Below, piece by piece: positions 3,484-50,658 of a DNA stretch of 64,000 nucleotides (positions are counted from its first letter, which is position 1; each line of letters begins with the position of its first letter). The stretch lies in assembly GCA_947468275.1 (NCBI GenBank), contig CANIKO010000009.1, positions 62,001 through 126,000 on the forward strand. Direction: 5' to 3'. The notes beneath the pieces were generated by a model, which had not been told where the DNA came from, made no database searches, and saw nothing but the letters and a program-made list of their open reading frames with translations. Made by a program: the position numbers and the translations under genes. This DNA comes from Bacteroidota bacterium. GTDB lineage: Bacteria > Bacteroidota > Bacteroidia > NS11-12g > UBA9320.

Positions 3484-5493
3484 TTGGAGGTTAAATCTAC
3501 ATTCGGTTTGTTTAGTCGCTTCATCCTTTGTCTGCTAATTTTTTTTCCTGCCTTGCTTTTTGCCCAAAGCAAAACCCCGGACAATGTAATGTTTGAAACC
3601 GGTCAATTCAAAAAAGTGAAACAAACCGACTTGGCAGATGTCACCCGAATTATTACTGAATCAGAAATACGATTGCGAGGTGCTAATAATCTTAAAGACA
3701 TTTTGATACTAGAAACCGGCGGAGTATTTAAGTATGACGCTCAAAAAGGATGGCAATTTTATTGGCATGGCAGCAATAAAGGAAATATTTTGATACTGAT
3801 GGATGGTTTACCTTTTCGATCGGTTCAGTTTGACGAAATGGATTTTCAACAAATCCCACTGGATAATATTAGCCGAATTGAAATAACCGAAACCCCACAA
3901 GGCGTGGCTTATGGCAACTCAGCCATTATGGGAGTAATAAATATTATTTCGAAAACAACTCAGCAAAAAGTATATAAACCCTCCCTTCGTTTTCATGTTT
4001 ATGCCCCTGGAGGCATATATAGTAATTTAAATTTAGGGCGACGAACCACTGAAAACTATTTTCGATTTTCGTCCTCTGTTGATGCCTTTGCTGGCAATCA
4101 AGGAAATGATTCAGGGCGGGTATTGCAATGGCTGCCTTATACTCGGATAAATAATCAAGTGTTTTTTTCTCATAAAATTCTTCAATACATGGATGTTTTC
4201 GTCGGGTTTAATAATCTTTATGAAATAAAAACCCAATTAGGGTATCCTTATCCTCAATCTATAAAAGCAAATGATAGGGTATTAAAAACCAATAATAATT
4301 CACTTTATGCAGGCATTAAAGGTAAACTTACCCAAAATATTAATCTTCAAGGCGATATTCAATTAATGGATTATAGAAGAAATAACACTTTATTTTTAAA
4401 AGATATTTCCACCGCCGAACAAATAGCTATAAATGACTCAGCTCTAAATGACACCATTCATTATAGATTTATATATAGCCGATGGGTACTTTCGCAAAAC
4501 GACAACAATAGATTTCTCAATTATCAGGCAGGATTTGACCTTTCCAATACGGATGATAGATATAAGCAAACTGTCAATAGTGTTCATCAGTCAAATACAA
4601 CATCTGCTTTGTTTTTAAATTTTCGTTATACAGGAATAAAAAGCATAATTATTAATGGTGGATTTAGACTGCCATACAGTTCCAAATACAAAACAAAACC
4701 TCTTTGGGATGTAAAAATGATTTATAAATTTACAAAAGAGTGGGGGCTTAAATTTATGGCGGCCCGAAGCACAAAAGCCCCTAACTTTGACCAATTATTT
4801 GCCACCTACCTTACCAATGGGTACAGTATTAAACGAAATCTGAACCTTACAGATGAAAGTGCTATGTCGTATCACTATTCATTATTTTTCAATAAGCACA
4901 ATGTCATTAAAAAAGGGGATAAACTAGAATTTGAACCTGGCTTTTTTAACTATTTTTTTAAAGGGGGTATAGAATTAATTGCGGATAAAAATAGCCCCGG
5001 ACGATTGGTACATAAAAACCTTAGCGAAAAAAAAACAATAGGCACCCGCATTAATATTGCTTACCAAAGCCACAATTTAGATTTAAACTTAAGAGGCACT
5101 CTTACTGGAAATAATTACTTCGCCAATTTGTTTGACCAACAATTATTTTTTAATGAAGTCTATTCCAATTTTATATTAAAAATACCGCACTATAATTTTA
5201 ATATTTGTTTTGTAAATAAGCTTACTTCACAGCGAGGATATATGTCGTTAGATGCCATGAAAGGGCCTCAAACATTTTTTAACCAACGCTTTTATTTGGC
5301 CGATGCAATTATTGAAAAATCATTTAGTAAAAAAACAATTACTCTAAGAGGCGGCATTAAAAATATTGCAAACGTTAAAAATATCGGCAGTTTTTTTCTT
5401 TCTACGAATAGTTCGGGCGGCCAGCAGCAGCCATTTACCACACCATTAATTAGTGGCAGAAATTATTTTATTGAATTAAATATTAATCTTTAA
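3484..5493 (+). CDS. TonB-dependent outer-membrane receptor
   Basis: A 669-aa outer-membrane importer of the TonB-dependent family; the ligand is unknown. A hydrophobic signal peptide ends at LLFAQ near residue 28. A plug domain covers roughly residues 45-165, with ILILMDGLP and the [10 protein letters not shown] segment characteristic of plugs. The remaining 500 residues look like alternating beta-barrel strands, ending in an aromatic/hydrophobic last strand. The usual carboxypeptidase-like N-terminal extension of many Bacteroidota receptors is absent. No ATG is available: the frame can start at TTG 3484 or at TTG 3508. The 3' end overlaps the convergent DUF1348 gene by 11 bp. No SusD partner is adjacent. 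Confidence 0.85.
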
Positions 5494-7614: not shown

Positions 7615-8001
7615 TTAGTTGGGGTTTATAATTTTTAAGAATGATTTTTCGGCAATGAGATGAAAGTGAATGGGATTGTGCTGATAGGCTTTTAAAACAT
7701 CCATTAATACGGCATCAAATATTTCTTTGGGCAGATTGTCTTTTTCATCGGCACAAATTAATGCCGGGTGAATAATCAAAAAATAAATATGGTCTACTCC
7801 CAGCCATTCTAAATCGGTGAGGCAATCATACAACGCATCAAAATTATGTCCGAAATGATTTGGAAATTTAAAAATAGATGCTAATTCATTCAACAACAAT
7901 TCCTTGGTTTTACAACGGTTTCCATCCAGTGTAATCATGTAAGAAGCATTATCACATTTTAGAGTAAAGGATTCATTTATTGGTAACAGTTGAAGTGCCA
8001 T
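7615..8001 (-). CDS. Barstar-family ribonuclease inhibitor
   Basis: A 128-aa barstar homologue that should bind and block the active site of the ribonuclease encoded just upstream, protecting the producer from its own enzyme. The diagnostic segment is FGHNFDALYDCLTDL near residues 50-65, matching the barstar helix that plugs barnase. Its ATG shares one base with the ribonuclease stop codon (TAATG), so translation of toxin and inhibitor is probably coupled. Pairing with the adjacent enzyme is inferred from family knowledge and position. Confidence 0.9.
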   Translation of the reverse strand: MALQLLPINESFTLKCDNASYMITLDGNRCKTKELLLNELASIFKFPNHFGHNFDALYDCLTDLEWLGVDHIYFLIIHPALICADEKDNLPKEIFDAVLMDVLKAYQHNPIHFHLIAEKSFLKIINPN

Positions 8002-8438
8002 TAGTTTATTTTTTTAAAGCTTTTATAATGATCATTGGTATACCAGGCTGATTTATCATCACCGGTTACAATTCGTTCTTTTCCTCTATTTAACATTCTC
8101 TTTTTAGGGTTTACATCCCATTCGTGGTATTCTATTTTTTCGCCATCAGGTTTTGTTTTGGGCAAAACTCCTTCATAATTATGAAACTCTCTTCCGCCAA
8201 CATAGCCATCCTTAGGCTCATGAAAAGTTTGCACATACTTCAAAATTTCATACACTTTTGCAGGAATTTCGTTTTCAGACTTGCTTTCATCTAATTCTGT
8301 TTCCGAATTGGTAATCAGGCTATCTGCAGCAATTTTTGAGGTTTCTGCCTTTGTATTTTGAAACGAATTGTACCATTTGCTGCCGCCGATTCCCAGCAGC
8401 ACACCAAACAAAAGGAAAATTATTATTTTACGGTTCAT
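8001..8438 (-). CDS. Secreted or membrane-anchored guanyl-type ribonuclease (RNase Sa/barnase-like)
   Basis: A 145-aa microbial ribonuclease of the N1/T1/barnase group. An N-terminal hydrophobic segment (about residues 4-18) acts as signal peptide or anchor, followed by a polar linker and the catalytic domain. Visible landmarks are the substrate-site strand GGREFHNYEG, the catalytic strand with YHEWDV (general base glutamate), RIVTG (catalytic arginine) and WYTNDHYKSF (catalytic histidine). I use the ATG at 8438; a TTG at 8450 would add four residues. It heads a minus-strand run with its barstar inhibitor directly next. The target could be competing cells or imported RNA as nutrient; the sequence does not decide. 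Confidence 0.88.
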   Translation of the reverse strand: MNRKIIIFLLFGVLLGIGGSKWYNSFQNTKAETSKIAADSLITNSETELDESKSENEIPAKVYEILKYVQTFHEPKDGYVGGREFHNYEGVLPKTKPDGEKIEYHEWDVNPKKRMLNRGKERIVTGDDKSAWYTNDHYKSFKKIN

Positions 8439-8485
8439 TAGCAAATTCAAACCAACAGTAATTTAAGCAGTATTGCAAGTAAGTT

Positions 8486-8567
8486 AACACGGAGGCACGG
8501 AGATACAGAGAAAAAAAATTTTTTAAATTATCTCTTCGAAACTCCCTTTTCTCCGTGCCTCTGTGTT
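8486..8567. repeat. Intergenic inverted repeat, GGAGGCACGGAG type
   Basis: The arms AACACGGAGGCACGGAGA (8486-8503) and TCTCCGTGCCTCTGTGTT (8550-8567) are near-perfect inverted repeats separated by an AT-rich spacer of about 46 bp. It lies between the divergent RNase and DUF962 genes. The form suggests a small non-coding mobile or REP-like repeat. No second copy is in the window. Confidence 0.6.
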
Positions 8568-8620
8568 ATTCCTTTTTCTCCTAATTTGGTTTTGAAAAAA
8601 ATTAGGTTTATGCTTGTAAC

Positions 8621-9094
8621 ATGCAAACCATCCATCAACTTTTGGAAACATACGGTGAAAGCCATAAAAATTCAACCAATAAACTCATTCACTGGATTTG
8701 TGTGCCGAGCATTATGTTCAGTTTGGCTGGGTTATTAATGGCCATCCCCAATCCATTTTTAGCCGAAAAATCATTTGTATTAAATTATGCCTTTGCCTTT
8801 TTTATGTGGGCCTGGATTTATTATATGCGCTTATCCAAAGTTATGTTTTATGGTTTTTTTGTAATTGGGTTAATCATGCTTTGGGGAAATCTTGAAATTT
8901 TTAAAGCTGTGGAAACTAGAGGAAATCTGGCTTTAATATCTATATCCATTTTTGTGTTAGCTTGGATTGGGCAGTTTATCGGTCATAAAATTGAAGGCAA
9001 AAAACCATTGTTTCTTCAGGATTTACAATTTCTGTTAATAGGCCCTGCTTGGTTGCTGCATTTTATTTATAATAAACTTAGGGTACACTATTAA
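8621..9094 (+). CDS. DUF962 / Mpo1-like membrane protein
   Basis: A 157-aa integral membrane protein of the DUF962 family, whose yeast member Mpo1 is a dioxygenase of the phytosphingosine degradation route. The N-terminal Y-x-x-x-H pattern (YGESHKNSTNKLIHWICVP) and the later IGQFIGHKIEGKKP segment with its conserved histidine are the family's presumed metal ligands. It has about four transmembrane helices. An enzymatic role on hydroxylated fatty acids is plausible by homology only. Its end overlaps the convergent GNAT gene by 4 bp. Confidence 0.85.
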   Translation: MQTIHQLLETYGESHKNSTNKLIHWICVPSIMFSLAGLLMAIPNPFLAEKSFVLNYAFAFFMWAWIYYMRLSKVMFYGFFVIGLIMLWGNLEIFKAVETRGNLALISISIFVLAWIGQFIGHKIEGKKPLFLQDLQFLLIGPAWLLHFIYNKLRVHY

Positions 9095-9576
9095 TACCCT
9101 TTCACCAGAATATAATCATCCATCGAGAAGCCGTTTCCAATATCAAAATCGGCTACTTCTTTTATTACAAAACCTGTTTTAAAATAAAAATTTATAGATT
9201 TAAAATTTTTGCGGTTCACCTGTAATCTCAATTCTTTGGGTTGAGCCATATTTTCCCATTGTTTTAAAATATCGGCTCCGATTCCTTTACCCTGAACACT
9301 CGTTTTTATATAAAATTTATTCATAAACCAATGTTCGGGTTCATTTTCCGTCACCGCGAAATAACCAATGGAATCCTTGATTTCATCTTGAATCAAATAA
9401 AATATTTGCCCTTCCTTCATCAATTTTTCAAGGTTTTCCAAGCTATAAAAATTGGCCAGCATGTATTCTATTTGCTCAGCAGTAATGATACTTAAATAAT
9501 GGTCGTACCATATTTTTTCAGCCAATTGGTAAATGGTTGGAAGGTCTTTGGGGGTTGCTAATTGTATGGCTGGCAT
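9091..9576 (-). CDS. GNAT family N-acetyltransferase
   Basis: A 161-aa acetyltransferase with the acetyl-CoA site VQGKGIGADILKQW and the C-terminal NFKSINFYFKTGF strand-helix seen in RimI-type GNATs. The substrate is unknown. It starts with ATG and is transcribed divergently from purL. Confidence 0.88.
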   Translation of the reverse strand: MPAIQLATPKDLPTIYQLAEKIWYDHYLSIITAEQIEYMLANFYSLENLEKLMKEGQIFYLIQDEIKDSIGYFAVTENEPEHWFMNKFYIKTSVQGKGIGADILKQWENMAQPKELRLQVNRKNFKSINFYFKTGFVIKEVADFDIGNGFSMDDYILVKGY

Positions 9577-9701
9577 TATTACCTATGGTTAATTTTTTTA
9601 AGGATACAAGATTAGAAGATAATTTAGTAAAAACCGAATAAAAACCAATCCTAACTTCTTAATTTCATCACTTCAAAACATCAAAAAAACTAAATTTAAA
9701 T

Positions 9702-9709
9702 TACCTTTG
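9702..9709 (+). promoter_or_regulatory. Probable -7 promoter box of purL
   Basis: TACCTTTG matches the Bacteroidota -7 consensus TAnnTTTG exactly. It lies 28 bp upstream of the purL start, which fits a short leader. I do not see a clear -33 element. Confidence 0.55.
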
Positions 9710-9737
9710 CCCCTCCCATTCTAAAATCGTAAATAAA

Positions 9738-11984
9738 TTGACACAATCATCCTCTCAATCCCTTGCTACCCTTGAACAAGCAACAACTCTTGGACTATTG
9801 CCTGAAGAATTCGAACAAATCAAAAGCATTTTAGGCCGAACCCCCAATTTTACTGAACTCTCTATTTATTCAGTGATGTGGAGTGAGCATTGTTCATATA
9901 AAAATTCCATCACTTGGCTTAAGACTCTGCCAAAGGAAGGCCCGATGATGCTAGCCAAAGCCGGTGAAGAAAATGCAGGTTTGGTAGATATTGGCGATGG
10001 ATTGGCCGTGTGTTTTAAAATAGAAAGCCATAACCACCCGAGTGTAATTGAGCCCTACCAAGGTGCCGCCACCGGAGTTGGTGGAATAAACCGTGATATT
10101 TTCAGTATGGGCGCACGACCTATTGCGCAATTAAATTCATTGCGTTTTGGAAATATAAATACCGACCGAACCAAGTGGCTAGTAAAAGGGGTCGTAAAAG
10201 GAATTGGAGATTATGGAAATGCCTTTGGAATACCAACCGTAGGTGGTGAAGTATATTTTGATGATTGCTACGAAACCAATATTTTGGTAAATGCCATGAG
10301 TGTGGGGATTGCCAAAATTGGGAAAACCATTAGTGCTGTAGCCGACGGACCGGGCAATCCGGTATATATTTTTGGAGCCGCAACCGGAAAAGACGGAATC
10401 CATGGAGCCGCCTTTGCTAGCAAGGATATTTCGGAAGACAGTATTAACGATTTACCATCCGTGCAAGTTGGCGACCCTTTCTGGGAAAAATTAATTTTGG
10501 AAGCCTCGATGGAATTATTGGATACCGATTCAGTAGTTGGTATGCAGGATATGGGCGCTGCAGGAATAACTTGCAGCACAGCCGAAATGGCCGCCAAAAG
10601 CGGAACGGGAATGAAAATTCAGTTGGACAAAGTACCCATGCGGCAAGCCGATATGAAAGGCTGGGAAATTTTGCTGAGCGAGAGTCAGGAACGCATGTTG
10701 GTTATTTTGCACAAAGGAAGAGAGCAAAAAGCCATCGATATCTTTAAAAAATGGGATTTAACCTATGCGTGCATTGGTGAAGTAACCGATACTGGACGTG
10801 TGGAATATTTCATGAACGGCCAACTCGAAGCAGATATTCCTGCTGAAAGTTTAGCGCTTGGAGGCGGAACACCAGTATACCACCGCGAATGGGCCGAACC
10901 GGCTTATATTTCTGAAAATAAAAAATTTGATATTAACTCCGTTTCGGATGTTAAGGGAGATTTAAAAGATGTTGCAAAATTTCTAATCCAACTTCCAAAT
11001 ATAGCTAGTAAGCAATGGGTTTATAACCAATACGACAGTATGGTGGGAACGGTAAATCAAAGTACCAACCGTCCAAGCGATGCCGCTATAGTTATGGTAA
11101 AGGGAACCAATAAATCATTGGCATTAACCGTGGATTGCAACAGCCGCTATGTATGGGCCGACCCTGAAGTGGGTTGCGCTATTGCTGTGGCTGAAGCAGC
11201 ACGTAATATCGTTTGTTCAGGTGGTGTGCCAAGCGGTGTTACCAATTGTTTAAACTTTGGAAATCCTTACGACAAAGGCGTTTATTACCAGTTTAAAAAT
11301 TCCATTGATGGAATGGGCCGTGCCTGCCGCAAGTTTGAAACCCCAGTGACAGGTGGTAATGTGAGTTTTTATAACCAAAGTACAGAAGGCGAAGCGGTGT
11401 TCCCAACCCCTACAATTGGAATGGTAGGAATTATTGAAAAACCTGAACACATTATGACCCTTGATTTTAAAAATGAAGGGGATTTAATTTATCTTTTGGG
11501 TGAAAGCAAAAACGACATTGCCTCATCGCAATACCTTGCTAAATATCGAAAGGTAAACAGTAGCCCTGCTCCGTATTTTGATTTAGATAAGGAATATAAT
11601 CTTCAACAAGTAACCTATAACCTAATAACAAATTACCATCTTCAAAGTTGCCACGACTTAAGCGAAGGAGGACTTTTCATAGCTTTGTTTGAAAGTGCCA
11701 AGCACCGTGGATTGGGTTTTGAAATTACGACCGATAAAAACTTCAGAACCGACGCCTTTTTATTTGGTGAAGCTCAAAGCCGCATCGTGGTTTCTATAAA
11801 ACCTGAGAAAAAAACTAGTTTTGAAAACGAACTTCAAAAATCGGGAACTTCTTTCCTTCAATTAGGAAAAGTTAAAGGTTCTGATATTTTGGTAGACGGA
11901 ACCTTGGTAGGTTCATTAAAGGATTACGAAACCCTTTATGACAATGCGATAGGGGATATTATTGAAGGAAATAAATTTTTTTAA
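9738..11984 (+). CDS. purL: Phosphoribosylformylglycinamidine synthase, PurL subunit
   Basis: The synthetase subunit that converts FGAR, ATP and ammonia to FGAM in purine synthesis, acting with PurQ and PurS in the cytosol. At 748 aa it is the small-type PurL that lacks the glutaminase domain. The N-terminal EHCSYKNS motif (residues 50-57) binds nucleotide, and the IESHNHPS segment near residue 95 and the glycine-rich GGNVSF segment of the second AIR-synthase half are present. The start appears to be TTG (MTQSS), with a -7 box just upstream. purQ and purS are not in the window. Confidence 0.96.
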
Positions 11985-12034
11985 ACGTCAAATATTTTTG
12001 GTCGGTTTTTTACCACTGATTGAGAATTAAAAAC

Positions 12035-13093
12035 TCACCTCAGAACAGTTATAGTGCCTTTTAAGAAATGTTTTTCATCGTTGGTATCCTTGCATTCTAT
12101 CTGATACCAATATACTCCCTGAATAACTAGTTCTTTCTTGTAGCTTCCATCCCAACCTTTGGTTGGATCTTCCGTTTCAAACATTTTTTCGCCCCAACGG
12201 TTAAAAATTTCAAGTCGGTAGGTTTTAATTTTTATGTTTCCACCCCAGGTAAAAATATCGTTGCTCCCATTCTTGTCCGCTGAAATAACATTGGGAACAA
12301 AAATATACATCGGGCAACTGTCCTTTAAATTAATTTGGTCGGAGGCACTGCATCCATCCGAATTAATTACGGTAACGGAATAATCACCGCTTGTAAGCAC
12401 CGAAATGGATTGCGAAGTTTCATTATTGGGCAGCCACAGATACGATGAATATCCCGGCCCTGCGTCAAGAATAGCAGGATTATCACCACAAATAAATCGG
12501 TCGGGGCCTAAATCTACGGTGGCTTTTGCCCCTCGTGTTACAGTTATTAGCTTTGTTTGGCTATCGCAAGCCACGCAGTTGGTGCATTTGTATGAAAAAT
12601 CGTCAATAATAAAAACACTTACGCCATAAGTACCCGGCAAATTAATAGTGATATTTCGCGTCGTTTGCCCACTAGGTATCCATTTATATCTAACCAAAGA
12701 ATTGGTGGCATTACCAGCATCCAGAGTTAGGTTTACGGGGCCGCATAAGGCGGTATCTCTCAAAGATGGCATTTGCACTTTTCCGTCAAACACTTTAATT
12801 ATGAATTTGTGAACACTATCTTTTGCATTATTGTAGGAAACCTTGCAGTTGGCGGTATACACACCAATGGTATTGTAAGGAACGGGGCCGCAAACACTAT
12901 CCGTTAATTTTCCAGAAAATGACGTGCCGGTAAGTGTCCATTGCCAGGCAATGGCATTTCCTGTTATGGTTTTAATACTAAAAACAATGTTTCTGATATC
13001 TTTACAAATGGTTATGGTATCAGGCGTTTGGGCGTTTAGCCGCAATCCTCCAAAAGTTGAGAAGAATAAAATGAGTAAGAGTTTGGTTCTCAT
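12035..13093 (-). CDS. Exported protein with a type B T9SS sorting domain (CHU_C)
   Basis: A 352-aa exported protein. A signal peptide ends near LRLNAQ (residue 22). Two or three Ig/PKD-like beta domains follow, with paired cysteines (for example CTNCVACDSQ). The C-terminal 90 residues form the gliding-motility-associated CHU_C domain: FVPNVIS near residue 267, IFNRWGEKMF, GWDGSYK and a final GTITVLR strand. This is the type B signal recognised by the type IX secretion system, so the protein is likely secreted or attached to the surface. Its biological role is unknown. Confidence 0.9.
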   Translation of the reverse strand: MRTKLLLILFFSTFGGLRLNAQTPDTITICKDIRNIVFSIKTITGNAIAWQWTLTGTSFSGKLTDSVCGPVPYNTIGVYTANCKVSYNNAKDSVHKFIIKVFDGKVQMPSLRDTALCGPVNLTLDAGNATNSLVRYKWIPSGQTTRNITINLPGTYGVSVFIIDDFSYKCTNCVACDSQTKLITVTRGAKATVDLGPDRFICGDNPAILDAGPGYSSYLWLPNNETSQSISVLTSGDYSVTVINSDGCSASDQINLKDSCPMYIFVPNVISADKNGSNDIFTWGGNIKIKTYRLEIFNRWGEKMFETEDPTKGWDGSYKKELVIQGVYWYQIECKDTNDEKHFLKGTITVLR

Positions 13094-13177
13094 TTTTCCT
13101 GAGTTTGAATTTCAGAGCAAATGTAAAATATTAATTTGGAAATGGAGATTAATAAAAATGAGGGGAAGATTATAACC

Positions 13178-13247
13178 TTATCGGTCGGTGTCTTCACCGG
13201 CCGAAATTCCATTAAATTGTTTCGTTTGGTGGGACACCAACCGATAA
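13178..13247. repeat. Imperfect inverted repeat between 13.17 and 13.25 kb
   Basis: The arms TTATCGGTCGGTGTC (13178-13192) and GACACCAACCGATAA (13233-13247) pair with one mismatch, and inner CACCGGCCGAAA and TTTCGTTTGGTG continue the pairing imperfectly. The element could form a long hairpin between the small 13.3-kb gene and the T9SS cargo gene. It may end transcription of the small gene or be a REP-like repeat. Confidence 0.5.
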
Positions 13248-13252
13248 AATGA

Positions 13253-13471
13253 TTAGACTTTTCTTATTTCTCTAGAATACACTGTGCCATCGGAATGAGT
13301 ATAGAATTTAAATAGTTTTTTATTCTTAAATTTTAAATGCCATTTAGGTTCAGGGTCAACCTTTCCCCAATCAATATCATCTTCATCATCAAAAAATGGT
13401 AACCCATTTTTATCTACATCGTCATAAAGTTTTTGCATTTCCGCAAGTCTTTCTTTTGATAATTTTTCCAT
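13253..13471 (-). CDS. Small acidic hypothetical protein
   Basis: A 72-aa protein I do not recognise. It starts at an ATG, has a charged N-terminal helix (about residues 1-20), an acidic stretch DDEDDID near residue 28 and a basic aromatic C-terminus with KNKKLFKFYTHSDG. No signal peptide or membrane segment is present. The composition looks coding, and it sits alone between a hairpin and a 160-bp gap next to the defence-like cluster. Confidence 0.5.
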   Translation of the reverse strand: MEKLSKERLAEMQKLYDDVDKNGLPFFDDEDDIDWGKVDPEPKWHLKFKNKKLFKFYTHSDGTVYSREIRKV

Positions 13472-13632
13472 TAACGAATATAGTCATTTTTGTTCATATT
13501 TCTTAGCTCAATATGCCTCTAAAGACTGATGGCACTAGTAATCTTTCATATATGGCATCTTGCAAAAATGAATACCTGTGTCATTAAAGATAGTCAACTG
13601 AGAGGTCAGCCAACAGCAATTTAAGGATTGAT

Positions 13633-14202
13633 TTAACAGCTATTCTTATTTATTTCCGTTGAACCATATTTTTTGAAAAGACTTTCAAAATTTTGAAAAG
13701 ACTCTAAGGAGGAATATATTTTTTTAAATTCTGTAATTGATGCTTCGAATTTTTCATGAAGATTATCAACAGAAACACAATATGAATTTGAGAGATCCTT
13801 TCGCTTAATTAAAAACCCTTTGGAACGAGTTAAAATAAATTTATATTCCTTACTATTCTTACCCTTGCTAAATAAACCAAAGCTATGGAGTAAAGAGTTT
13901 CTCAATTGATATAATTCCTCTTTGTATTTACTGTCAATAAATTTTTCGGTGTATTTTATGAAACGTGAACGAGAGTTTTCAAAAGAATCATCACCGCAAT
14001 AAAATTTAGCCAAAAGATCTATCCCTCCAAGAATCCCCATCGTCCCTGGCCAAATTGCAATATATTCTATTTTAATACTAGGATCATTTGGGTTTTTACC
14101 AAAACAAGTATTTATATCACGACGTAATAATGAAAGATTACTAAAGCAAATCTTATTTTCGACATTTTTATCATAATCGAAAAAGAAATCATCATCTGTC
14201 AT
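13633..14202 (-). CDS. Hypothetical protein with a HEPN-like RNSLLH motif
   Basis: A protein of about 189 aa, mostly helical, with no signal peptide. I place the start at the second ATG (MTDDDFFF); the longer frame adds 18 hydrophobic residues that look spurious. The segment LYQLRNSLLHSFGLFSK contains the R-x4-H pattern (R then H five residues later) of HEPN ribonuclease domains. HEPN proteins often act in toxin-antitoxin or anti-phage systems, and this gene lies next to a nuclease-helicase and a RelE pair. The HEPN assignment is my inference from one motif and the context. Confidence 0.55.
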   Translation of the reverse strand: MTDDDFFFDYDKNVENKICFSNLSLLRRDINTCFGKNPNDPSIKIEYIAIWPGTMGILGGIDLLAKFYCGDDSFENSRSRFIKYTEKFIDSKYKEELYQLRNSLLHSFGLFSKGKNSKEYKFILTRSKGFLIKRKDLSNSYCVSVDNLHEKFEASITEFKKIYSSLESFQNFESLFKKYGSTEINKNSC

Positions 14203-14256
14203 GGTTAATTTAAAAATTAAAATTGGAGAATAGTAAACGATACTTTTAATAAACAC

Positions 14257-14469
14257 AAATGTAATTAAACACCTGAGTTTATTAACTAACTATTAATTAT
14301 AGTCGGTGTTAGGTAAGAAGATTTAAATGTAAAAAAGTAAACAGTATTTACTTTTTTGCATTTAATAACTGAAATGGTAGAACATATCAATTAAATACTC
14401 GATGACTTAATAGTAAAAATGTTTTATAAATTTTTGTTCTATATAATGAGAATTTTTTATAATTGTTGG
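14257..14469. other. AT-rich gap upstream of the HEPN-like gene
   Basis: This gap of about 210 bp is very AT-rich and shows no open reading frame, strong hairpin or repeat that I can support. It presumably holds the promoter of the HEPN-like gene and the end of the helicase transcript. Confidence 0.5.
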
Positions 14470-17415
14470 TTATTTCTTACCAAAAAAATCTGCCCAACCT
14501 TTCCAACCTTTATCTTTATAAACGCGATTAACTGCGTTTGGAATATCTATCGGAAGTATATGTTGCTTTATAAAAGTTCTCCATTCTTTTGCTGATTTAA
14601 TTCCATTCTGCTTGACAAATTCTTTTACTTCGGAAAACGTTCTATATTTTTTATCTTTATTTGACAGATTGTTATTTCCTAAAAAATCACCCATACCTTT
14701 CCAACCATCACTTTTGTAAACTCTCTCTGGCTTTGAAGGAATGTTTTTAGGATTTAGCCCTGCTTTGGTAAATTCTAACCAATCTTTTCTGGATTTAAAA
14801 TTTAAATTTTTAGCATATTTTTTCGAATCTTCAAATGAAATATACTCTCTTTTTTGAGGTGCAATGATTCCATTTCCAAGCCAATCACCAATAGATAGCC
14901 ATCCTTGATTTTTGTATTTTACCCACGGAGTTTTGGGTAAATCATTTGGTAATTTACCTGAACTACAAAATAATCTCCATTCTTTGCCACTTCCCAATTT
15001 AAGAGACCTTGCAAAGGTTCTTGCCTTATCGAAATTTCTGAATGATTTATTTTGGTCTGCAATTCTTCCTGTACCTAACCAATCACCCCAACTTTTCCAT
15101 CCAGAACCCCCATAAACTACGTTTGGACTTTGTGGGATATCATCTGGTTTTTGAATAGATTTACAATATATCCGCCATTCTTTAACACTATTTAAATTTA
15201 ATTTTCTTACAAACGTTTGAGCTTCTATAAAATCTCTATACTCTCTATCATTATTCGATGAATTACCTGTATCAAGCCAATCACCCCAACTTTTCCATCC
15301 AATATTTTTATAAATCAAATGAGGATTAGTAGTAATATCAAAAGGTTTTTTATTTGAAATACAATATTCTCGCCACCCTTGAACATTTTTTAGTTTCAAT
15401 AAATGAACAAACTCCCTTGCCTCTTCAAACGGCATCCAACTTAACTTAGCCAGTTTATTCCAGGTTGTTAATTGTATGGTATCAATTAAGTCCTTCTCAT
15501 TTATTTCATCACCAATCTGTACATCAATATCAAATTGGATTAAGCCATCTTTTTTATTAGCAATCTTGCCTTTGCTGATGTCTTTAAAATATTCAATAAT
15601 CCGCTCGTCATTGGAGGCTAAGGCTCTTAGGGTGCTTAGTATTTCTTTAAATTCAGCACTTTCTATTATTTCCTCTTTTGTGGTGGAGTTGGTAAAAACC
15701 GGTAAAATAACATAGCCAAACTTTTTGCCGACTTTTTTCCGCAAAGCCCTTCCCACGGCTTGCACAATATCCACGGTGCTTTTGCGCGGGTCGGCAAATA
15801 ATACACAATCAATATTGGGCACATCTATTCCTTCGGTTAAGCATTTGGCATTGGTAATAATTCCTTTGTCGGTTGCGGCAAATTCATCCACCACTTTGCT
15901 TCGCTTGGAAGTAGGCATGGAACCCGACACATGGTAGGATTGAACCGCAGCAAAACTTGGGTAGGCAGTACTAAATACCGATTGACTTTGCTCAAAAGCC
16001 TCTGCCTTTTTAATACTTGAATGAAAGGTAACGGCATGATGAATGGGGTATTCCGTCATGGCTTTTCGCAAAGCAATTAAGGAAGCTAACGACCGGGCTT
16101 CGGTTTCACTGTCCCATTCTTTGCCGGTAGGTTTTACAAAGGCATTTTTATCTATCAGTTTTTTTACTTCCTCATTAGAAATAAAAAGGGTTATAATTCT
16201 ATAGTCGGATAAAATACCAATGTCTATGGCTTCCTTAAACGATAGCTGACTAAATGTTTCGCCATAAACGTCCAAATCATCCATGCTCAAAACGGTATCC
16301 GAAGCTCCTGCATACCGGCGTTCGGTGGCGGTCATAAAAATCCGTTTGGCAATCGTTATATTCTTATCAAATAATAAATGACTAAATAGTTTATCCTGAA
16401 CCCCAACCGTTTTATGGGCTTCATCCATAATTCCCAAATCAAAATTATGGTTGGCCATCTTACAAGCTTCAGCAATGGTTTTGCCCGATTGATAGGTGGT
16501 AAAAATTATGGTTTTGTTTTTAGCATTTTCCTTAAGCCAATCAGCTATTATAGCTTTGTTGGTAACACAAGGAACCCCAATTTCATTGGTATGAATCACC
16601 ACATCATCGTTTTTGCCAATGCCTTCATCACTGCATACACACAGCCATGAAACGGTATCATTATTGGCTACCGTTTCTCTTAAATAAACTTCCAAAGTTT
16701 GTTTAACCAACGAAAGAGAAGGAACGGCTACGATTATCCGTTTTGCCTTTAGTTCCTTAGTAATCCAATAACCTGTTAAACTTTTACCTGCACCACAAGG
16801 AAACACTAATTTCCCTCGGGTGTTATTTTCTTTTAAAAAATAATCCTTTGCTTCTTTTAAGGCTGCTTTTTGATGAGGTTTTGGTTTAAAAGGTTCGAGT
16901 TTACTTGCTTTACCTGAAAGCTCGTTTCTTAACCACTCAAAGAACTGTCCATCCAATTTTCTCCATTCATCCGAATTGCAAAAACCAATATTGCTTTTCC
17001 CATGATATATTTTGGCATAATCATCTACCGTTGTGCAAACCAAACAGTAGGAAATATTCTCGGCAATGCCAGTGCTTAATGAAACAAAGGTAGAAATAGC
17101 CCGGTGAGATAATCGCTGTTCTTCGTCCTGAAGGTATTTGCATTGTATGGCCCAATAGGTTCCTTCAAAAGTTTCAGCAATCAGGTCAATGCCTTGGTCG
17201 TTTAGAGGTAAATTTAGTTTTTTTAGAACCGAAGGAGGAACTTCATTTTGCAGCCAAACTTGTTTCAGTTTGGTTTTATAAACAGGATTATATTGTAAAT
17301 AATATTTGGTTAATTCTTCAAAAGCCTTCCCTTTTTCAAGTTTGGTTTTGGTTTCAAGAACGTTTTTGAAATCGTTCCAAGAATTGATAGATGATATAAA
17401 CGATTTAAAATTCAT
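14470..17415 (-). CDS. Restriction-type PD-(D/E)XK nuclease fused to SF2 helicase with five C-terminal repeats
   Basis: A 981-aa probable DNA-processing enzyme. Residues about 25-150 resemble an Mrr/PD-(D/E)XK nuclease, with GID (D77) and the QxK variant QCK (91-93). The SF2 helicase follows: Walker A PCGAGKS (206-212), MDEAH (330-334), MTATERR (361-367) and the arginine-finger motif QAVGRALR (552-559). From about residue 660 to the end come five repeats of 65-67 aa, each ending in a GW-x-x-W/M/I-x-D-W/F-L/F motif (at 706, 772, 838, 904 and 970). These resemble the repeat unit described for some phage integrases and helicase-associated domains. No methyltransferase gene is nearby. Role inferred: restriction or other anti-phage defence. 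Confidence 0.82.
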   Translation of the reverse strand: MNFKSFISSINSWNDFKNVLETKTKLEKGKAFEELTKYYLQYNPVYKTKLKQVWLQNEVPPSVLKKLNLPLNDQGIDLIAETFEGTYWAIQCKYLQDEEQRLSHRAISTFVSLSTGIAENISYCLVCTTVDDYAKIYHGKSNIGFCNSDEWRKLDGQFFEWLRNELSGKASKLEPFKPKPHQKAALKEAKDYFLKENNTRGKLVFPCGAGKSLTGYWITKELKAKRIIVAVPSLSLVKQTLEVYLRETVANNDTVSWLCVCSDEGIGKNDDVVIHTNEIGVPCVTNKAIIADWLKENAKNKTIIFTTYQSGKTIAEACKMANHNFDLGIMDEAHKTVGVQDKLFSHLLFDKNITIAKRIFMTATERRYAGASDTVLSMDDLDVYGETFSQLSFKEAIDIGILSDYRIITLFISNEEVKKLIDKNAFVKPTGKEWDSETEARSLASLIALRKAMTEYPIHHAVTFHSSIKKAEAFEQSQSVFSTAYPSFAAVQSYHVSGSMPTSKRSKVVDEFAATDKGIITNAKCLTEGIDVPNIDCVLFADPRKSTVDIVQAVGRALRKKVGKKFGYVILPVFTNSTTKEEIIESAEFKEILSTLRALASNDERIIEYFKDISKGKIANKKDGLIQFDIDVQIGDEINEKDLIDTIQLTTWNKLAKLSWMPFEEAREFVHLLKLKNVQGWREYCISNKKPFDITTNPHLIYKNIGWKSWGDWLDTGNSSNNDREYRDFIEAQTFVRKLNLNSVKEWRIYCKSIQKPDDIPQSPNVVYGGSGWKSWGDWLGTGRIADQNKSFRNFDKARTFARSLKLGSGKEWRLFCSSGKLPNDLPKTPWVKYKNQGWLSIGDWLGNGIIAPQKREYISFEDSKKYAKNLNFKSRKDWLEFTKAGLNPKNIPSKPERVYKSDGWKGMGDFLGNNNLSNKDKKYRTFSEVKEFVKQNGIKSAKEWRTFIKQHILPIDIPNAVNRVYKDKGWKGWADFFGKK

Positions 17416-17432: not shown

Positions 17433-17702
17433 TCAGGAATACACATCTTTGCGATGACCAACTTTAATTATTAAAATCTCTACCTCTTCAGCATTAACCT
17501 GATAGATGACCCGGTAGTTGCCAACCCTAATTCTAAAATAATCGTCTTCCGATGTTTTTAATTTTTTGTAACCGGCAGGATAAGGATTTGTTGCAAGCTG
17601 GTGAATAGATTTGATTAGTTTCTGATAATCGCGTGAAGGAAGAACCTTCACTTCTTTAGCAAAAGACTTATATAGTTTTATTTTATAAGTCAACTCCGGC
17701 AA
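17433..17702 (-). CDS. RelE/ParE-family toxin
   Basis: An 89-aa toxin of the RelE/ParE superfamily. Typical landmarks are KEVKVLPSRDYQKLIKSI in the N-terminal helices, the YFRIRVGNYRVIYQV strand pair and VGHRKDVYS at the C-terminus. Members are mRNA interferases or gyrase poisons; the basic residues and KVGHRKDVY ending favour a RelE-type mRNA interferase, but this is not certain. It overlaps the preceding small gene by 20 bp, which fits an antitoxin-toxin operon. Confidence 0.88.
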   Translation of the reverse strand: MPELTYKIKLYKSFAKEVKVLPSRDYQKLIKSIHQLATNPYPAGYKKLKTSEDDYFRIRVGNYRVIYQVNAEEVEILIIKVGHRKDVYS

Positions 17703-17916
17703 TTTTTTTTATACCTCTTCGCTTATTTTCTGTAGTAATAAATTCATTGAAATCTAAGGTTTCTTCGCCTTTGCGTTTTTCAATATCAATTAAATCTATG
17801 ATATCTTCCAAAAGCTCATACCAAGAAGCATCGGTTTTTTTTAAATCGAGCTGAAGGTATCGGTTCTTGCCCTTTCCGTCTTTAATAATTTTCGCCCCTG
17901 GATTTTTTAATTGCAT
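17683..17916 (-). CDS. Putative antitoxin of the RelE pair
   Basis: A 77-aa acidic/basic protein with the predicted antitoxin layout: a short N-terminal beta segment (NRYLQLDLK), then helices (ELLEDIIDLIDIEKR) and a flexible charged C-terminus. I do not recognise a named DNA-binding family. The call rests on size, position immediately upstream of the toxin and the 20-bp overlap. Confidence 0.75.
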   Translation of the reverse strand: MQLKNPGAKIIKDGKGKNRYLQLDLKKTDASWYELLEDIIDLIDIEKRKGEETLDFNEFITTENKRRGIKKIAGVDL

Positions 17917-46327: not shown

Positions 46328-47710
46328 TTGAGATATACAGTTAGTTTTGATTGCAAAACACATCATGTTGGTAAAGACGGAATGATCCCTATGCTTTTAA
46401 GGGTTTCTATAAATGGTCAGCATGATTATATAAATCTTGGAAAAAGAATAAAAAGGATTCATTATGATGAAATAAATAAATGTGTTAAAGCTGGGATAAC
46501 GGGATTTGGTACAACCAATGCATTTATAGTTAGGCAAAAAGGCATTATTGATGCTATTGTCGAGGATTTTGAGAGAAAGCAGGAAATAATTACTATTCAC
46601 AGGGTCAAAGAAGTTTATGTATCCCGAACAGGGAAAGAAAAGTCCATAAGCCTATTTGATTTTATTGAACAGACGCTCGACTATGAGAAAAAATTTACCA
46701 AAATCAGTCCGTCTACCTTAAAAGGGTATTTAGCTAAATTAAAACATCTTAAAGATTTTAAATCAAAACTTTCAATTCATGAAGTAGACAAGGTATTACT
46801 GGATAAGTATCAAACGTTTTTGCGTGAGGAATTAAAGCTATCAAAAAATACCATTTATAATGACCTTGTGTTTCTTCGCAAATACACTAAAAAACTATTT
46901 GATCAGGGAAAATTAACAAAATACCCGTTTTCGGACTATACCGTTGGCCAGCCACATCTTTCAGAAGTTCAACATTTAATACCGGATGAAATTAATGAGC
47001 TGCAAAAACTTTATGACAGTAAAAAATTATTGAAAATTGTAAGGAAATCTGAAAGTAAGTATGCCAAATACAAGGAATTTGCTGTAGGACAAAGATACCA
47101 GGAAATTTTGCGCTATTTTTTGGTGGCGTGTTATTGCGGCCTCCGCCATTCAGATATAAAAACCCTAAATAGTAAAGATATTCAGGGTAATTATATCGTT
47201 AAGGAAATGCAGAAAGGCCGCCTGGACAGAAAAAAAACGGTTAGAATACCCTTGAGAAAAAGGATTTCAGCATTGCTTGATTTATCAAATCCCGGCGGAT
47301 TGGTTTTTGACAATCCGGTTATGGAAGATGCACAAACCAATAAATATCTCAAAGCTATTATTCAAGATCATACGAATATTAAGAAGCATATCACATTCCA
47401 TTGTGCAAGGCACACTTTTGCTGTAAGTTCCCTTTTGTTGGGATTACCTATAGAGGTGGTAAGCGATATTTTGGGCCATTCTGAATTAACAACAACCCAA
47501 CGTTATGCCAAGGTGGTAGATGAATTAAGGGATAAACACATGGATAAATGGGATATGTTAATTAAAGAAGAATCAAATAAAAATGAAATTCAAGTAAACT
47601 GTCCTGCTTGCGAAAATACAGTGATGAAATTTGAAAGGAACCTTATTAAGTTGAACAAAATTCCAATAGAGTGCCCGTTTTGTTCAACGAATTTTGTATA
47701 TACGTTATAA
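46328..47710 (+). CDS. Tyrosine recombinase with C-terminal zinc ribbon
   Basis: A 460-aa site-specific recombinase. An N-terminal arm-binding domain (about 1-90) and a SAM-like core-binding domain (about 107-200) precede the catalytic domain with R273 (GLRHSD), H358 and R361 (HCARHTF), H384 (GHSEL) and the nucleophile Y393 (TQRYAKV). An additional tail holds C425xxC428 and C449xxC452, a zinc-ribbon pattern not needed for recombination. The start seems to be TTG. It should cut and join at the tRNA-Arg site beside it. Confidence 0.93.
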   Translation: MRYTVSFDCKTHHVGKDGMIPMLLRVSINGQHDYINLGKRIKRIHYDEINKCVKAGITGFGTTNAFIVRQKGIIDAIVEDFERKQEIITIHRVKEVYVSRTGKEKSISLFDFIEQTLDYEKKFTKISPSTLKGYLAKLKHLKDFKSKLSIHEVDKVLLDKYQTFLREELKLSKNTIYNDLVFLRKYTKKLFDQGKLTKYPFSDYTVGQPHLSEVQHLIPDEINELQKLYDSKKLLKIVRKSESKYAKYKEFAVGQRYQEILRYFLVACYCGLRHSDIKTLNSKDIQGNYIVKEMQKGRLDRKKTVRIPLRKRISALLDLSNPGGLVFDNPVMEDAQTNKYLKAIIQDHTNIKKHITFHCARHTFAVSSLLLGLPIEVVSDILGHSELTTTQRYAKVVDELRDKHMDKWDMLIKEESNKNEIQVNCPACENTVMKFERNLIKLNKIPIECPFCSTNFVYTL

Positions 47711-48000
47711 ATATTGATTTTGTGACATGTATTTCAGGACGAGTCAACGTTGTCTTGTCCTAAGGGGAGTGTCCTGCCGTGATTCTATTTTACGGCAGGG
47801 GGGTGGTTTGCCTTTTTTGATATTCTGCTATCGGAATTATGCCATTTAATATTATAAGACAAGCAGGCTACCGTGATCACATGGTTTTAAAATGGATATA
47901 AAAAGTCTTAGGTTCGTTACAAAACGAGTGTTGATGAAAAATGCCGAAAATGATACATATTTGTTTTCCGGTTACATTAAAACTAACCTAAATTTTTTTA
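47711..48000. other. Gap after the integrase with two hairpins
   Basis: Hairpin 1 pairs AGGACGAG with CTTGTCCT (47736-47761, one G-T pair). Hairpin 2 pairs CTGCCGT with ACGGCAG (47774-47798) and is followed by a G run, then by TTGCCTTTTTTG. These may end integrase transcription or be a structured RNA. The remainder up to 48000 is AT-rich with no gene that I can support. Confidence 0.5.
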
Positions 48001-48050
48001 TAGTAGTTTACTACTATAAAACATAGTAGTTTTCTATCATTTTTAGGAGT
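48001..48050 (+). promoter_or_regulatory. Operator-like block, copy 1, upstream of the regulatory cassette
   Basis: It begins with the palindrome TAGTAGTTTACTACTA (48001-48016), then TATAAAAC, a third TAGTAG half-site in direct orientation (48024-48029) and a TATCATTTTTAGGA tail. It lies 50 bp ahead of the small gene at 48100; a weak -7 box TATACTTG sits at 48078-48085. The near-identical copy at 50609 makes a shared binding site likely. Confidence 0.75.
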
Positions 48051-48099
48051 AATTAAAATTAGACTTTAAAAAACTATTATACTTGCAAACAAAAAACCT

Positions 48100-48408
48100 A
48101 TGTCATATACAGGATACGAAGACCACAGTATTACGCTTCAAGATGCAGCAGATCTAACTTCTAATTACAGAACCTCTCACCCAGGCGCAATTAAAGGATT
48201 TTATTACAGTAAACAGGCAATCACAGCAATTTTAAACCAAACGGATTGCGTTGGTATCAGAATTTATTATGGAGAGGACGATCTGGGTGTATCAAAACTC
48301 GTTATTGCCGGGGTAAAAGCGGATGAAGATGATATGGAAACAGGATTATTAGCAGAATTTGGTAATCCTTGCCCTCCTCACGGTAGTGCAAATTCTTTGA
48401 ATAGCTAA
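48100..48408 (+). CDS. Small conserved protein with a CPP motif
   Basis: A 102-aa protein of a family I know only as unnamed Bacteroidota proteins. The pattern is an N-terminal ITLQDAADLTSNYR helix, GFYYSK, a cysteine-containing core NQTDCVGIRIYYGED, then LVIAGVKADEDDM and a C-terminal GNPCPPHG motif. No signal peptide or membrane segment is present. The ending and the cysteines invite metal binding or export, but this is unproved. It heads the regulatory cassette: the next gene starts one base after its stop (GTG at 48410). Confidence 0.75.
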   Translation: MSYTGYEDHSITLQDAADLTSNYRTSHPGAIKGFYYSKQAITAILNQTDCVGIRIYYGEDDLGVSKLVIAGVKADEDDMETGLLAEFGNPCPPHGSANSLNS

Positions 48409-48409
48409 T

Positions 48410-49033
48410 GTGTTAATTAAATTATGCAGCCTTTCTATTATTATACCAATTATTATTGGTATAATTTATTGGGGTAACCTCAATAAACTGCAAAAATATT
48501 TCTTTTGGTTTATTGGGTTTTCTGTAATAATTGAAGGGTTATCTTTTTACACAAAAATTAAGGACATTGATAATCATGGATTATTCAAATTTTTCCTGAT
48601 TTGTGATTTATTATTCTTCACTTGGTTTTTCAATAAATCTTCTCCCTTCAAAAATTGGTTAAAAATACTTACCGGTTTATTGATAACCTATATCATTATC
48701 TGGGAAATTACAATTAGGTATTTTAAACCAATCGCTCAGGTTGAAAGCCTTTTTTATATCTTAATCTTTTTATTCTTTGTAGTACAAAGCCGACAAGTAA
48801 TTCTTGGTTTGTTTAATAATTTTGAAATAGACCTTTTCAAAAATTACCTGTTTTGGATTGCTTCTGCAAGGCTGATATATTACTTATTCATATTATTTAT
48901 CTATGTTTATCCAATTTTACTGAGCGATAGTTTTAATATTAAGTTGTTTGCTGTGGCGTTTACTATAATTAATACGACGGCAAATATTATTTGTAATGTT
49001 ATGTATGGAATGAGTTTTTATGAAAGAAAGTAA
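48410..49033 (+). CDS. Multi-pass membrane protein of the sensor cassette
   Basis: A 207-aa protein with about six or seven predicted transmembrane helices and few polar loops; I do not recognise a named family. The start is GTG, because the nearby ATG at 48408 is out of frame and stops at once. Its 3' end overlaps the kinase gene by 14 bp. The kinase has only one membrane helix and no sensor domain, so this protein may supply the signal input. That is inference from the operon only. Confidence 0.75.
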   Translation: MLIKLCSLSIIIPIIIGIIYWGNLNKLQKYFFWFIGFSVIIEGLSFYTKIKDIDNHGLFKFFLICDLLFFTWFFNKSSPFKNWLKILTGLLITYIIIWEITIRYFKPIAQVESLFYILIFLFFVVQSRQVILGLFNNFEIDLFKNYLFWIASARLIYYLFILFIYVYPILLSDSFNIKLFAVAFTIINTTANIICNVMYGMSFYERK

Positions 49034-49760
49034 CGAACTAACCATTGAACTAATTATAGTATTTTCCTGTTTTTTACTGGTAATGGGTTCATCGTTTTTT
49101 TTGTTATTTAGTAAGTATCATAAAAGCCTGAAATTAAAACAGAAGGAAGCATTAAATAATTTGATAGTTGGTCAGGATAATGAAAGGGAAAGAATATCAC
49201 GTGATTTACATGATGAAATGAAACCAGATTTGGCCTCCCTTATTCATAAAATAGATGAAATAAATTCAAAGGAGCCAAACATTTTAGAAGTAAAGAAACA
49301 AGCTAAGCTTACAATAAAAAAGATTATTCAGGATATCCGGCGGATATCTCATGATCTTGCACCACTTATACTAACTAAGTTTGGATTGTCCAATTCTATA
49401 CAGGAACTTATAGATACTTACAAAGGAAAAATTAAAATTGAATTCACTTCAAATTGCGAAGGCAAAGTGTTTAATGATAAAACAGAAGCTCATCTCTATA
49501 AAATCATAAAAGAACTTATTTCTAACACCAAAACACATAGCCAAGCCAATTTGATAAGCATAGTTTTATTGTATAATTTTCAAAAACATGAACTGGAACT
49601 TGCTTATAGCGATAATGGTATTGGTTTTAAAAAAAAGGATCAAAAAACATCAGGAATTGGCCTGAAAAATATTGTAACCCGGGTTGGATTAATGAATGGA
49701 ACTATTAAAATAGACGGAAACAAAGGGTTTAAAGCGAAAATAGCAGTAAATACAGATTAA
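49020..49760 (+). CDS. Histidine kinase, HisKA_3 type
   Basis: A 246-aa sensor kinase. One transmembrane helix (about 9-30) is followed by a HisKA_3 dimerisation domain with the phosphorylated H64 in ERISRDLHDEM, then an HATPase_c domain with the N box ELISNTKTHSQA and the G1 box SDNGIGF and GIGLKNI. The lack of any periplasmic sensor domain means input probably comes through a partner such as the overlapping membrane protein. It pairs with the regulator 11 bp downstream. Confidence 0.92.
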   Translation: MKESNELTIELIIVFSCFLLVMGSSFFLLFSKYHKSLKLKQKEALNNLIVGQDNERERISRDLHDEMKPDLASLIHKIDEINSKEPNILEVKKQAKLTIKKIIQDIRRISHDLAPLILTKFGLSNSIQELIDTYKGKIKIEFTSNCEGKVFNDKTEAHLYKIIKELISNTKTHSQANLISIVLLYNFQKHELELAYSDNGIGFKKKDQKTSGIGLKNIVTRVGLMNGTIKIDGNKGFKAKIAVNTD

Positions 49761-49771
49761 AATATTCATCT

Positions 49772-50428
49772 ATGAATGATACTATAAATGCTTTAGTTGT
49801 CGAGGATCATCCTATTTATAGAAAAGGGATAGTCAAAATTATTTCAGGCTTAAAATTTGTAAAAACCTGCGATGAAGCTGAAAATGGGCAAATAGCTGTT
49901 GATGCATTTAAAAAGTTAAGATATGATGTTGTTTTTCTGGATATCTCAATGCCTGTAATGGATGGTTTAACTGTTGCCCGAATACTGAAAGAAAAATATC
50001 CAAAGACAATAATTATTGTTCTTACGTTTATTGACTCCAAAAAACAAATTATTGAAATATTGGAAATGGGTGTAAATGGATATTTATTAAAAAGTGCCGA
50101 AGAAGATGAGATTATTAAAGCATTAAATATAATTGCTGAGGGAAGACAATATTTTACGGATGAAGTATATAAAATATGGGCAGACCATTGCGTAAACAAA
50201 TCGTCTTTATTAAACTCAGTAAATAAAGAGCCTAGATTAAGTAAACGTGAAATAGAAATCGTCCGGCTATTGTGTGAGCAACATACGGCCAATGATATAG
50301 CCAATTATCTTTGTGTATCTAATTCCACGGTTAATAACCATCGTAGCCATATCATGCAGAAAATCGGGGTTGATAATACCGTTGGCGTGGTATTATATGC
50401 CATTGAACACGGGATTTTCGTTATATAG
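49772..50428 (+). CDS. NarL/LuxR-type response regulator
   Basis: A 218-aa transcription factor. The receiver domain (1-120) has acidic pocket E11-D12, phosphoacceptor D57 (FLDISMPVMDG), a conserved T (about 86) and K (about 108). The LuxR-type HTH covers about 155-218 (LSKREIEIVRLLCEQHTANDIAN). NarL-type regulators bind as dimers to inverted repeats, so the two TAGTAG palindrome blocks nearby are natural candidates for its sites. Confidence 0.93.
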   Translation: MNDTINALVVEDHPIYRKGIVKIISGLKFVKTCDEAENGQIAVDAFKKLRYDVVFLDISMPVMDGLTVARILKEKYPKTIIIVLTFIDSKKQIIEILEMGVNGYLLKSAEEDEIIKALNIIAEGRQYFTDEVYKIWADHCVNKSSLLNSVNKEPRLSKREIEIVRLLCEQHTANDIANYLCVSNSTVNNHRSHIMQKIGVDNTVGVVLYAIEHGIFVI

Positions 50429-50608
50429 AATTATTTTCGTTCCATTTGAAAAATAAAGAGGGTGTAAACCTGATTTATTAATTCATTAAATCAGCCAAAA
50501 ATCTCTCCTAAAAGCATTCTTAATGTTCTTGAATTTGTGGGTATTTCAATTTAACATTCACGATTTGTCATCTTATTATCATCGAAATAATATTTTGATT
50601 AAAAAACA
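50429..50608. other. Gap between the regulator gene and the second operator
   Basis: AT-rich, with no gene and no strong hairpin that I can support. It likely holds the end of the regulator transcript. Confidence 0.5.
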
Positions 50609-50658
50609 TAGTAGTTTACTACTATAAAACGTAGTAGTTTTATATCATTTTTAGGAAC
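50609..50658 (+). promoter_or_regulatory. Operator-like block, copy 2, upstream of the large operon
   Basis: The same 50-bp block as at 48001, with the palindrome TAGTAGTTTACTACTA intact (50609-50624) and only about three differences (positions 23, 34 and the final bases). It is 147 bp ahead of the first gene of the large operon. Such conservation in otherwise unrelated AT-rich gaps implies a functional site. Confidence 0.8.

Follow-up and report, generated by a model that had tools for sequence, protein, structure and literature searches.

Type ISP restriction enzymes such as LlaBIII and LlaGI carry a Mrr nuclease followed by an SF2 motor in a single polypeptide, and an excerpt of PMC4872093 describes them as having a conserved front half and a variable half made up of the MTase-TRD and C-terminal specificity parts. 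Also known already, besides these front halves, were the INT_rpt repeats (as the Pfam family PF14882) and an HA-repeat counterpart of the architecture (as database entries). PF14882 appears merely in a table of modelled repeats in the available portion of PMC8078820, and in the open-access literature we found no paper describing INT_rpt repeats fused to a restriction motor, nor one describing array exchange.

Gene layout and kinship with Type ISP enzymes

The window, by which we mean the whole 64,000-nucleotide stretch of Bacteroidota DNA that was analysed, holds a genuine open reading frame on the minus strand at 14470-17415, encoding a protein of 981 aa. Its features are as follows.

14470..17415, minus strand: whole gene, 981-aa nuclease-motor-repeat protein (ORF)
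17014..17292, minus strand: Mrr-type PD-(D/E)XK nuclease, residues 42-134, with D77, Q91 and K93 (Pfam Mrr_cat_2; residues invariant in a 49-row alignment)
15604..16899, minus strand: SF2 ATPase motor, residues 173-604 (Pfam ResIII and Helicase_C; LlaBIII fold match; invariant motifs)
Within the motor, residues 173-604: Walker A G208-K211; DEAH 331-334; Q552-R556-R559
15439..15603, minus strand: helical segment, residues 605-659, linking motor to array (AlphaFold model)
15241..15438, minus strand: repeat 1, residues 660-725 (repeat profile)
15043..15240, minus strand: repeat 2, residues 726-791 (repeat profile)
14845..15042, minus strand: repeat 3, residues 792-857 (repeat profile)
14647..14844, minus strand: repeat 4, residues 858-923 (repeat profile)
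14473..14646, minus strand: repeat 5, the final 58-aa unit, residues 924-981 (repeat profile)
14323..14365, minus strand: hairpin 3' of the stop codon, 19-nt arms and 5-nt loop, a possible terminator (DNA repeat search)

The first-pass annotation had placed a PD-(D/E)XK domain and an SF2 helicase ahead of five GW-type repeats, and this order held: Pfam matched Mrr_cat_2 at residues 42-134 (E=1.9e-17), ResIII at 176-364 and Helicase_C at 450-560, all above the cut-offs. The nuclease residues that it had named (D77, Q91 and K93) are invariant among 49 aligned full-length relatives, as are the key residues of the motor motifs that we take to be Walker A, DEAH, TAT and QxxGRxxR. Judging by these invariant residues, the nuclease and motor of the window protein look intact, and the refuting outcome that the annotation had set, a lack of conservation of the nuclease residues, did not come about.

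The repeats fill the protein from residue 660 to its last residue, in units of 66, 66, 66, 66 and 58 aa, and also show in the DNA as a 198-nt periodicity. The spacing of 66 aa agrees with the annotated length of 65-67 aa, which the last unit falls short of. The GW motifs lie exactly where they had been placed (706, 772, 838, 904 and 970), while the full GW-x-x-W-x-D-W-L pattern is strict in two of the five repeats, the rest reading GWLSIGDWL, GWKGMGDFL and GWKGWADFF. The repeats are far beyond chance, as a profile built from the five of them finds 3-12 tiled copies in relatives.

A sequence search returned LlaBIII (4xqk) as the best solved relative (residues 18-619, E=1.8e-62, phmmer) and LlaGI as the next (residues 174-666). 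An AlphaFold model of the window protein, built from 49 sequences (mean pLDDT 83.9), gave the same ranking in fold comparison, with LlaBIII at Z 30.6 over 597 residues (rmsd 2.8 A), LlaGI at Z 23.5 and other helicases at Z ≤18.3; the structural alignment with LlaBIII stops at model residue 664. Because sequence and fold agree, the front 660 residues of the window protein are a Type ISP-like nuclease and motor, a kinship that the LlaBIII match reveals and that the earlier annotation had not mentioned. PADLOC labels the head REase_MTase_IIG (E=9e-94), with a match limited to positions 16-646 of the 1646-position profile. There were also weak profile matches of the head to RadD and XPB.

The likeness to Type ISP enzymes ends behind the motor. 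The Type ISP chain there passes into the coupler, whereas the window protein has residues 605-659 and then the array. In Pfam searches the window protein showed no match to ISP_coupler (PF22240) at E≤0.1, none to N6_Mtase and none to the specificity domain Type_ISP_C (PF18135), all of which were found in 3/3 Type ISP controls, and it carries no motif IV. In place of coupler, methyltransferase and Type_ISP_C, the family of the window protein has 3-12 tandem repeats.

The repeat family and its carriers

The window's own repeats score 16.8 bits against Pfam INT_rpt (PF14882), below the cut-off of 26.5, and the relatives L003 and L049 exceed it with 48.0 and 54.7 bits. We name the repeats INT_rpt because these relatives pass the cut-off. 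In a profile comparison, the tail alignment also matched a gamma-mobile-trio integrase at 99.9% probability. Judged from such profile matches, the window repeats are of the INT_rpt kind, via relatives rather than from the window protein alone, and the label 'GW-type' was misleading.

Across 359 aligned repeats from 57 proteins, a scaffold of A7, W22, P36, P39, Y43, G47, W48, D53, L55 and G56 is near-fixed. Among 77 within-protein repeat pairs that are ≥70% identical, 40 of which come from L008 and L039, the positions changing most are 40, 62, 41, 20, 38, 19, 37, 59, 5, 33 and 9. The hypervariable positions of the repeat are 19, 20, 37, 38, 40 and 41; positions 59 and 62 in the linker and 5 and 9 in the first helix also vary much. 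The tail model (pLDDT 92.6) predicts four helices per repeat (4-14, 19-27, 39-42 and 51-55 in the first unit), which places positions 19-20 and 37-41 at the N-terminal ends of the second and third helices. Position 8 is arginine or lysine in 91% of repeats, as are positions 17, 27 and 44 in 65-73%, and the net charge of the window protein is +25 in the tail vs +2 in the head. Foldseek of the tail against the PDB gave no match at E≤0.001, which does not by itself prove a new fold, and a further structure comparison found none at Z≥2 among 163 chains. Against a viral structure library the tail gave few matches, giant-virus SF2 helicases among them.

The repeats also occur in other proteins. On a Pseudomonas plasmid, the VPA1269 protein of a gamma-mobile-trio element bears eight repeats (INT_rpt, 174.5 bits) before its Integrase_2 core. 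Locus L061 encodes five repeats, a weak match to a DUF559/MTES_1575 nuclease (below the cut-off) and then three more repeats. Two repeat proteins lie at 7983-14906 of locus L071, on a 379-kb viral contig, and one of them combines eight repeats with an SF2 helicase and a Methyltransf_8 domain. The presence of the repeats in several kinds of DNA enzyme favours DNA as their ligand. A search for the integrase found none in 369 genomes of one class and none in E. coli genomes. Another fusion was seen at L016 (669-4862), where a DUF4238 domain (residues 1115-1379) follows the array.

Distribution, array exchange and neighbourhood

Scanning 84,980 species, each represented by a single genome, yielded 61 loci and scanning viral contigs yielded eight, counts that are lower bounds since exact peptide patterns were used. 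A re-scan of the viral contigs with a SAR11 protein returned only a locus already found. With the window genome and one genus mate there are 71 loci in total. Full-length genes with both ends inside the contig are present at 52 of them, and the other 19 are contig-end cuts, broken genes or different proteins bearing repeats. Repeat number varies among the 52 full-length relatives from 3 to 12, as the first-pass annotation had proposed to check between strains: three repeats at one locus, four at 11, five at 10, six at eight, seven at 11, eight at four, nine at four, ten at two and 12 at one. The protein ends ≤4 residues past the last repeat in 42 of these 52 genes.

In a tree of 53 heads and four outgroup heads, all INT_rpt heads fell on one side of a branch with support 100/99, although the small number of outgroups (three Type ISP enzymes and one HA-repeat helicase) and several long branches limit the tree. 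Record labels in this tree name about 11 phyla. The distribution of the family is patchy. Counting the starting genome each time, the gene was present in 2/39 genomes near the window's own, in 4/397 genomes of the SAR11 family and in 3/26 genomes of one verrucomicrobial family. A Pfam INT_rpt genome search gave 0/296 genomes of the window's phylum and likewise 0/14 controls, and is uninformative on presence. At the sister locus L063, the flanks are shared at about 84-87% DNA identity beside a gap in which window bases 13250-17255 are absent, and the copy at L057 carries an internal deletion; this loss and this deletion fit an accessory gene. The deletion scar in L063 (10001-10198) retains codons 1-53 of the gene, adjoining the far flank. 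At L028 (10001-10697), a complete copy is preceded by a stretch that matches the first 122 bases of the gene and then by a 191-aa ORF, which looks like the truncation of an earlier allele.

For all protein pairs, head identity was compared with the mean best-match identity of the repeats. The repeats were no more alike in pairs with heads 85-90% identical (0.41, 27 pairs) than in pairs with heads 40-50% identical (0.41, 766 pairs), and reached 0.45 with heads 90-95% identical (18 pairs). Arrays were ≤0.48 alike in 43 of the 49 pairs whose heads are 85-100% identical, pairs that come from 23 proteins and are non-independent, many of the pairs being from SAR11. The six exceptions were L065/L066 (1.0, the same sequence), L015/L037 (0.89), L014/L016 (0.66), L009/L015 (0.63), L009/L037 (0.62) and L013/L032 (0.60), the four at 0.60-0.66 being Verrucomicrobia pairs. 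Repeat number was unequal in 19/27, 12/18 and 2/4 pairs of the top three head-identity bins.

The exchange is also seen in the DNA. SAR11 genomes that share one chromosomal site for the gene were aligned with L034. L052 and L041 match it at 89% as far as base 4105 or 4108, and L038 does so at 90% as far as 4261. All three alignments resume from 5405-5425; the array of L034 starts at 4089 and its ORF ends at 5417. DNA identity in these genomes breaks at the start of the array and returns at the stop codon. L036 and L053, the latter a frameshifted copy, share both flanks at about 94-96%, and the array between them cannot be aligned except for its last part, at 80%. Smaller units are exchanged as well. 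Silent differences between L015 and L037 are 0.13-0.14 in the head, and repeats 1, 2, 5, 6 and 7 differ by 0.02-0.07, whereas repeats 3 and 4 have amino-acid differences of 0.32-0.33 and silent differences of 0.61 and 0.34, so that in this pair single repeats were replaced as blocks. Conserved heads with replaced arrays are what one would expect of a specificity module that is subject to diversifying pressure.

Two other sources of this variation were considered. Local silent repeat cassettes were rejected, as 78 of 84 repeat-bearing sequences have a single repeat ORF, and the remaining six are broken arrays, trailing units or from the viral contig. Array decay or misassembly was rejected in view of the kept scaffold residues, the open frames and the flanks that align on both sides.

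No DNA methyltransferase was found among 812 neighbour genes at 69 loci. The motif IV search, which recovers the methyltransferase in 3/3 Type ISP proteins, gave six candidates among these neighbours, and a Pfam scan of all six identified none as a methyltransferase. A classical restriction-modification system with a separate methylase, which the first-pass annotation had named as the finding that would speak against its reading, was rejected on the strength of the methylase-free gene and neighbours; a methylase gene farther off in the genome would escape this search.

A Pfam tally of 126 of the 229 neighbours within 3 kb gave mostly single housekeeping families, and among the 25 of 118 families listed, no family occurred in more than two neighbour genes. 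PADLOC returned scattered single matches on the neighbours, such as SngC, PDC-S01 and BrxHI. No recurrent neighbour gene was widespread; flanks are shared among the SAR11 loci and within one group of viral contigs, and an operon or partner gene was rejected for want of a recurring neighbour beyond these. The ParE/RelE toxin, DUF3291 and FkbM genes next to the window gene recur in the sister locus L063 only. In the region 17433-17916 (minus strand), the ParE/RelE-type toxin gene lies 17 bp upstream of the gene, and a 77-aa ORF without a Pfam match is in the antitoxin position; L063 also has both. Downstream of the gene, the ORF at 13633-14256 (minus strand) encodes a 207-aa protein of unknown kind, which was lost with the gene in L063 and recurs at no other locus.

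Two further regions of the window were recorded. At 7615-8450 (minus strand), a gene for a barstar-family inhibitor (PF01337) has a one-base overlap with one for a microbial ribonuclease (PF00545), and the two are a natural barnase/barstar-like pair. The region 46328-62604 (plus strand) contains a tyrosine-recombinase-like ORF, recognised by eye, and very large plus-strand ORFs (662, 708, 1327 and 997 aa). It is partly low in G+C and is possibly an integrated element.

Target choice, alternatives and known systems

We lean, with somewhat better than even confidence, towards a single-gene, methylase-free restriction enzyme or motor in which an exchangeable INT_rpt array selects the DNA target. 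The earlier proposal that the repeats choose the target without a methylase partner has, as regards target choice, good indirect support from array swaps under conserved heads, from hypervariable positions and from the same repeats in an integrase, and its element of DNA reading stays a proposal. The array would bind DNA and read its sequence, presumably for defence. The basic array may bind DNA with each repeat giving a few contacts through the variable residues that begin its second and third helices, so that the whole array would recognise a long and rare sequence absent from the host. Protective methylation could be needless because the recognised sequence is long, rare and absent from the host. 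Binding of the array would start the motor, cleavage might follow from motor-driven convergence as in LlaBIII and LlaGI, and replacement of the array would retarget the enzyme. Weighing against this reading, the neighbourhoods are mostly housekeeping and defence-type matches are scattered. The six pairs without low array identity, the non-independence of the pairs, the score of the window's repeats below the INT_rpt cut-off, the variable linker and first-helix positions and the structure searches that returned nothing like the repeats count against it too.

The array might instead sense phage or plasmid proteins, a ligand freeing a less specific nuclease-motor. Array turnover is compatible with this: a protein ligand or inhibitor could also drive the swapping, and ligand sensors caught up in an arms race would likewise be expected to exchange repeat arrays on a conserved effector. 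However, the head is a restriction engine that translocates on DNA, and its Type ISP relatives bear a DNA-reading tail at this place, the tail of the window protein is strongly positive, and the repeats recur beside DNA enzymes (the integrase, the weak DUF559-type nuclease of L061 and the SF2 helicase of L071), which makes a protein sensor unlikely. SauUSI is a Type IV enzyme. The window protein resembles it in being a solitary, methylase-free, ATP-dependent nuclease (excerpt of PMC7913695), and an array that recognised modified phage DNA would need no methylase partner. Yet a reader of a single modified base should be conserved, and the family has 3-12 repeats with the whole array replaced between close relatives, so that we consider recognition of modified DNA quite unlikely.

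The weak RadD and XPB profile matches and the positive tail would also suit a RadD- or XPB-like helicase-nuclease that serves housekeeping or repair and whose tail binds DNA non-specifically. This is very unlikely in view of the fold comparison (Z 30.6 for LlaBIII vs ≤18.3 for others), the patchy presence and the loss of the gene in a sister genome, and a non-specific tail gives no reason for arrays to be replaced faster than the head diverges. Since the gamma-mobile-trio integrase has the same repeats, the array could also belong to a mobile or homing element and locate that element's own insertion site, as it may in integrases. We give this hardly any probability: the window protein lacks an integrase catalytic domain (no Phage_integrase or Integrase_2 match in Pfam), the SAR11 gene sits at one shared chromosomal site despite wholly different arrays, and there are no conserved partner genes.

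If the array of the methylase-free restriction motor does select its target, it would be an exception to the rule that ATP-dependent restriction motors whose specificity part can be swapped depend on a methylase to spare their own DNA. A new repeat family would also join the short list of modular nucleic-acid sequence readers. More tentatively, and at a probability that we put below even, INT_rpt arrays may form a new class of modular repeats that bind DNA sequence-specifically, with residues 19-20, 37-38 and 40-41 setting a repeat-to-bases code, and that restriction motors, other nucleases and integrases share. The window enzyme would then be naturally retargetable, and would distinguish self from non-self through how long and how rare its target is and not by methylation. 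Whether natural arrays on near-identical motors have different long DNA targets has become a testable question.

Several known systems share part of this design. To our knowledge, INT_rpt repeats are unrelated to those of TAL effectors and TALE-like proteins, from which the window repeats also differ in being longer and in that their code and DNA binding are putative. TAL effectors and TALE-like proteins (BurrH, MOrTL; compare PMC5472282) likewise have tandem repeats with a few hypervariable residues on a fixed scaffold. The words helicase, nuclease and integrase do not occur in PMC5472282. VPA1269/Integrase_2 of the gamma-mobile-trio shares the repeat family, with eight units, whereas its repeats are N-terminal to a recombinase core and it has no nuclease-motor.

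A parallel head-and-tail architecture (Mrr-ResIII-Helicase_C and HA repeats, PF03457) is found in WP_064689746.1 of a Rhodococcus qingshengii plasmid, which has a related head and a tail of eight short repeats; locus L082 (2450-6055), on a Rhodococcus plasmid, is an HA counterpart, with Mrr nuclease, motor and eight HA repeats. However, HA and INT_rpt repeats do not align (probability 0.1%, one HA protein vs the tail alignment), the window protein has no HA domain match in Pfam, and the HA-repeat head falls outside the INT_rpt clade. Type ISP enzymes and the HA-repeat helicases are together the nearest architectures known. Type ISP enzymes share the order of nuclease and motor, and the conserved front and varying C-terminal part described for them in the excerpt of PMC4872093 are also found in the window's family.
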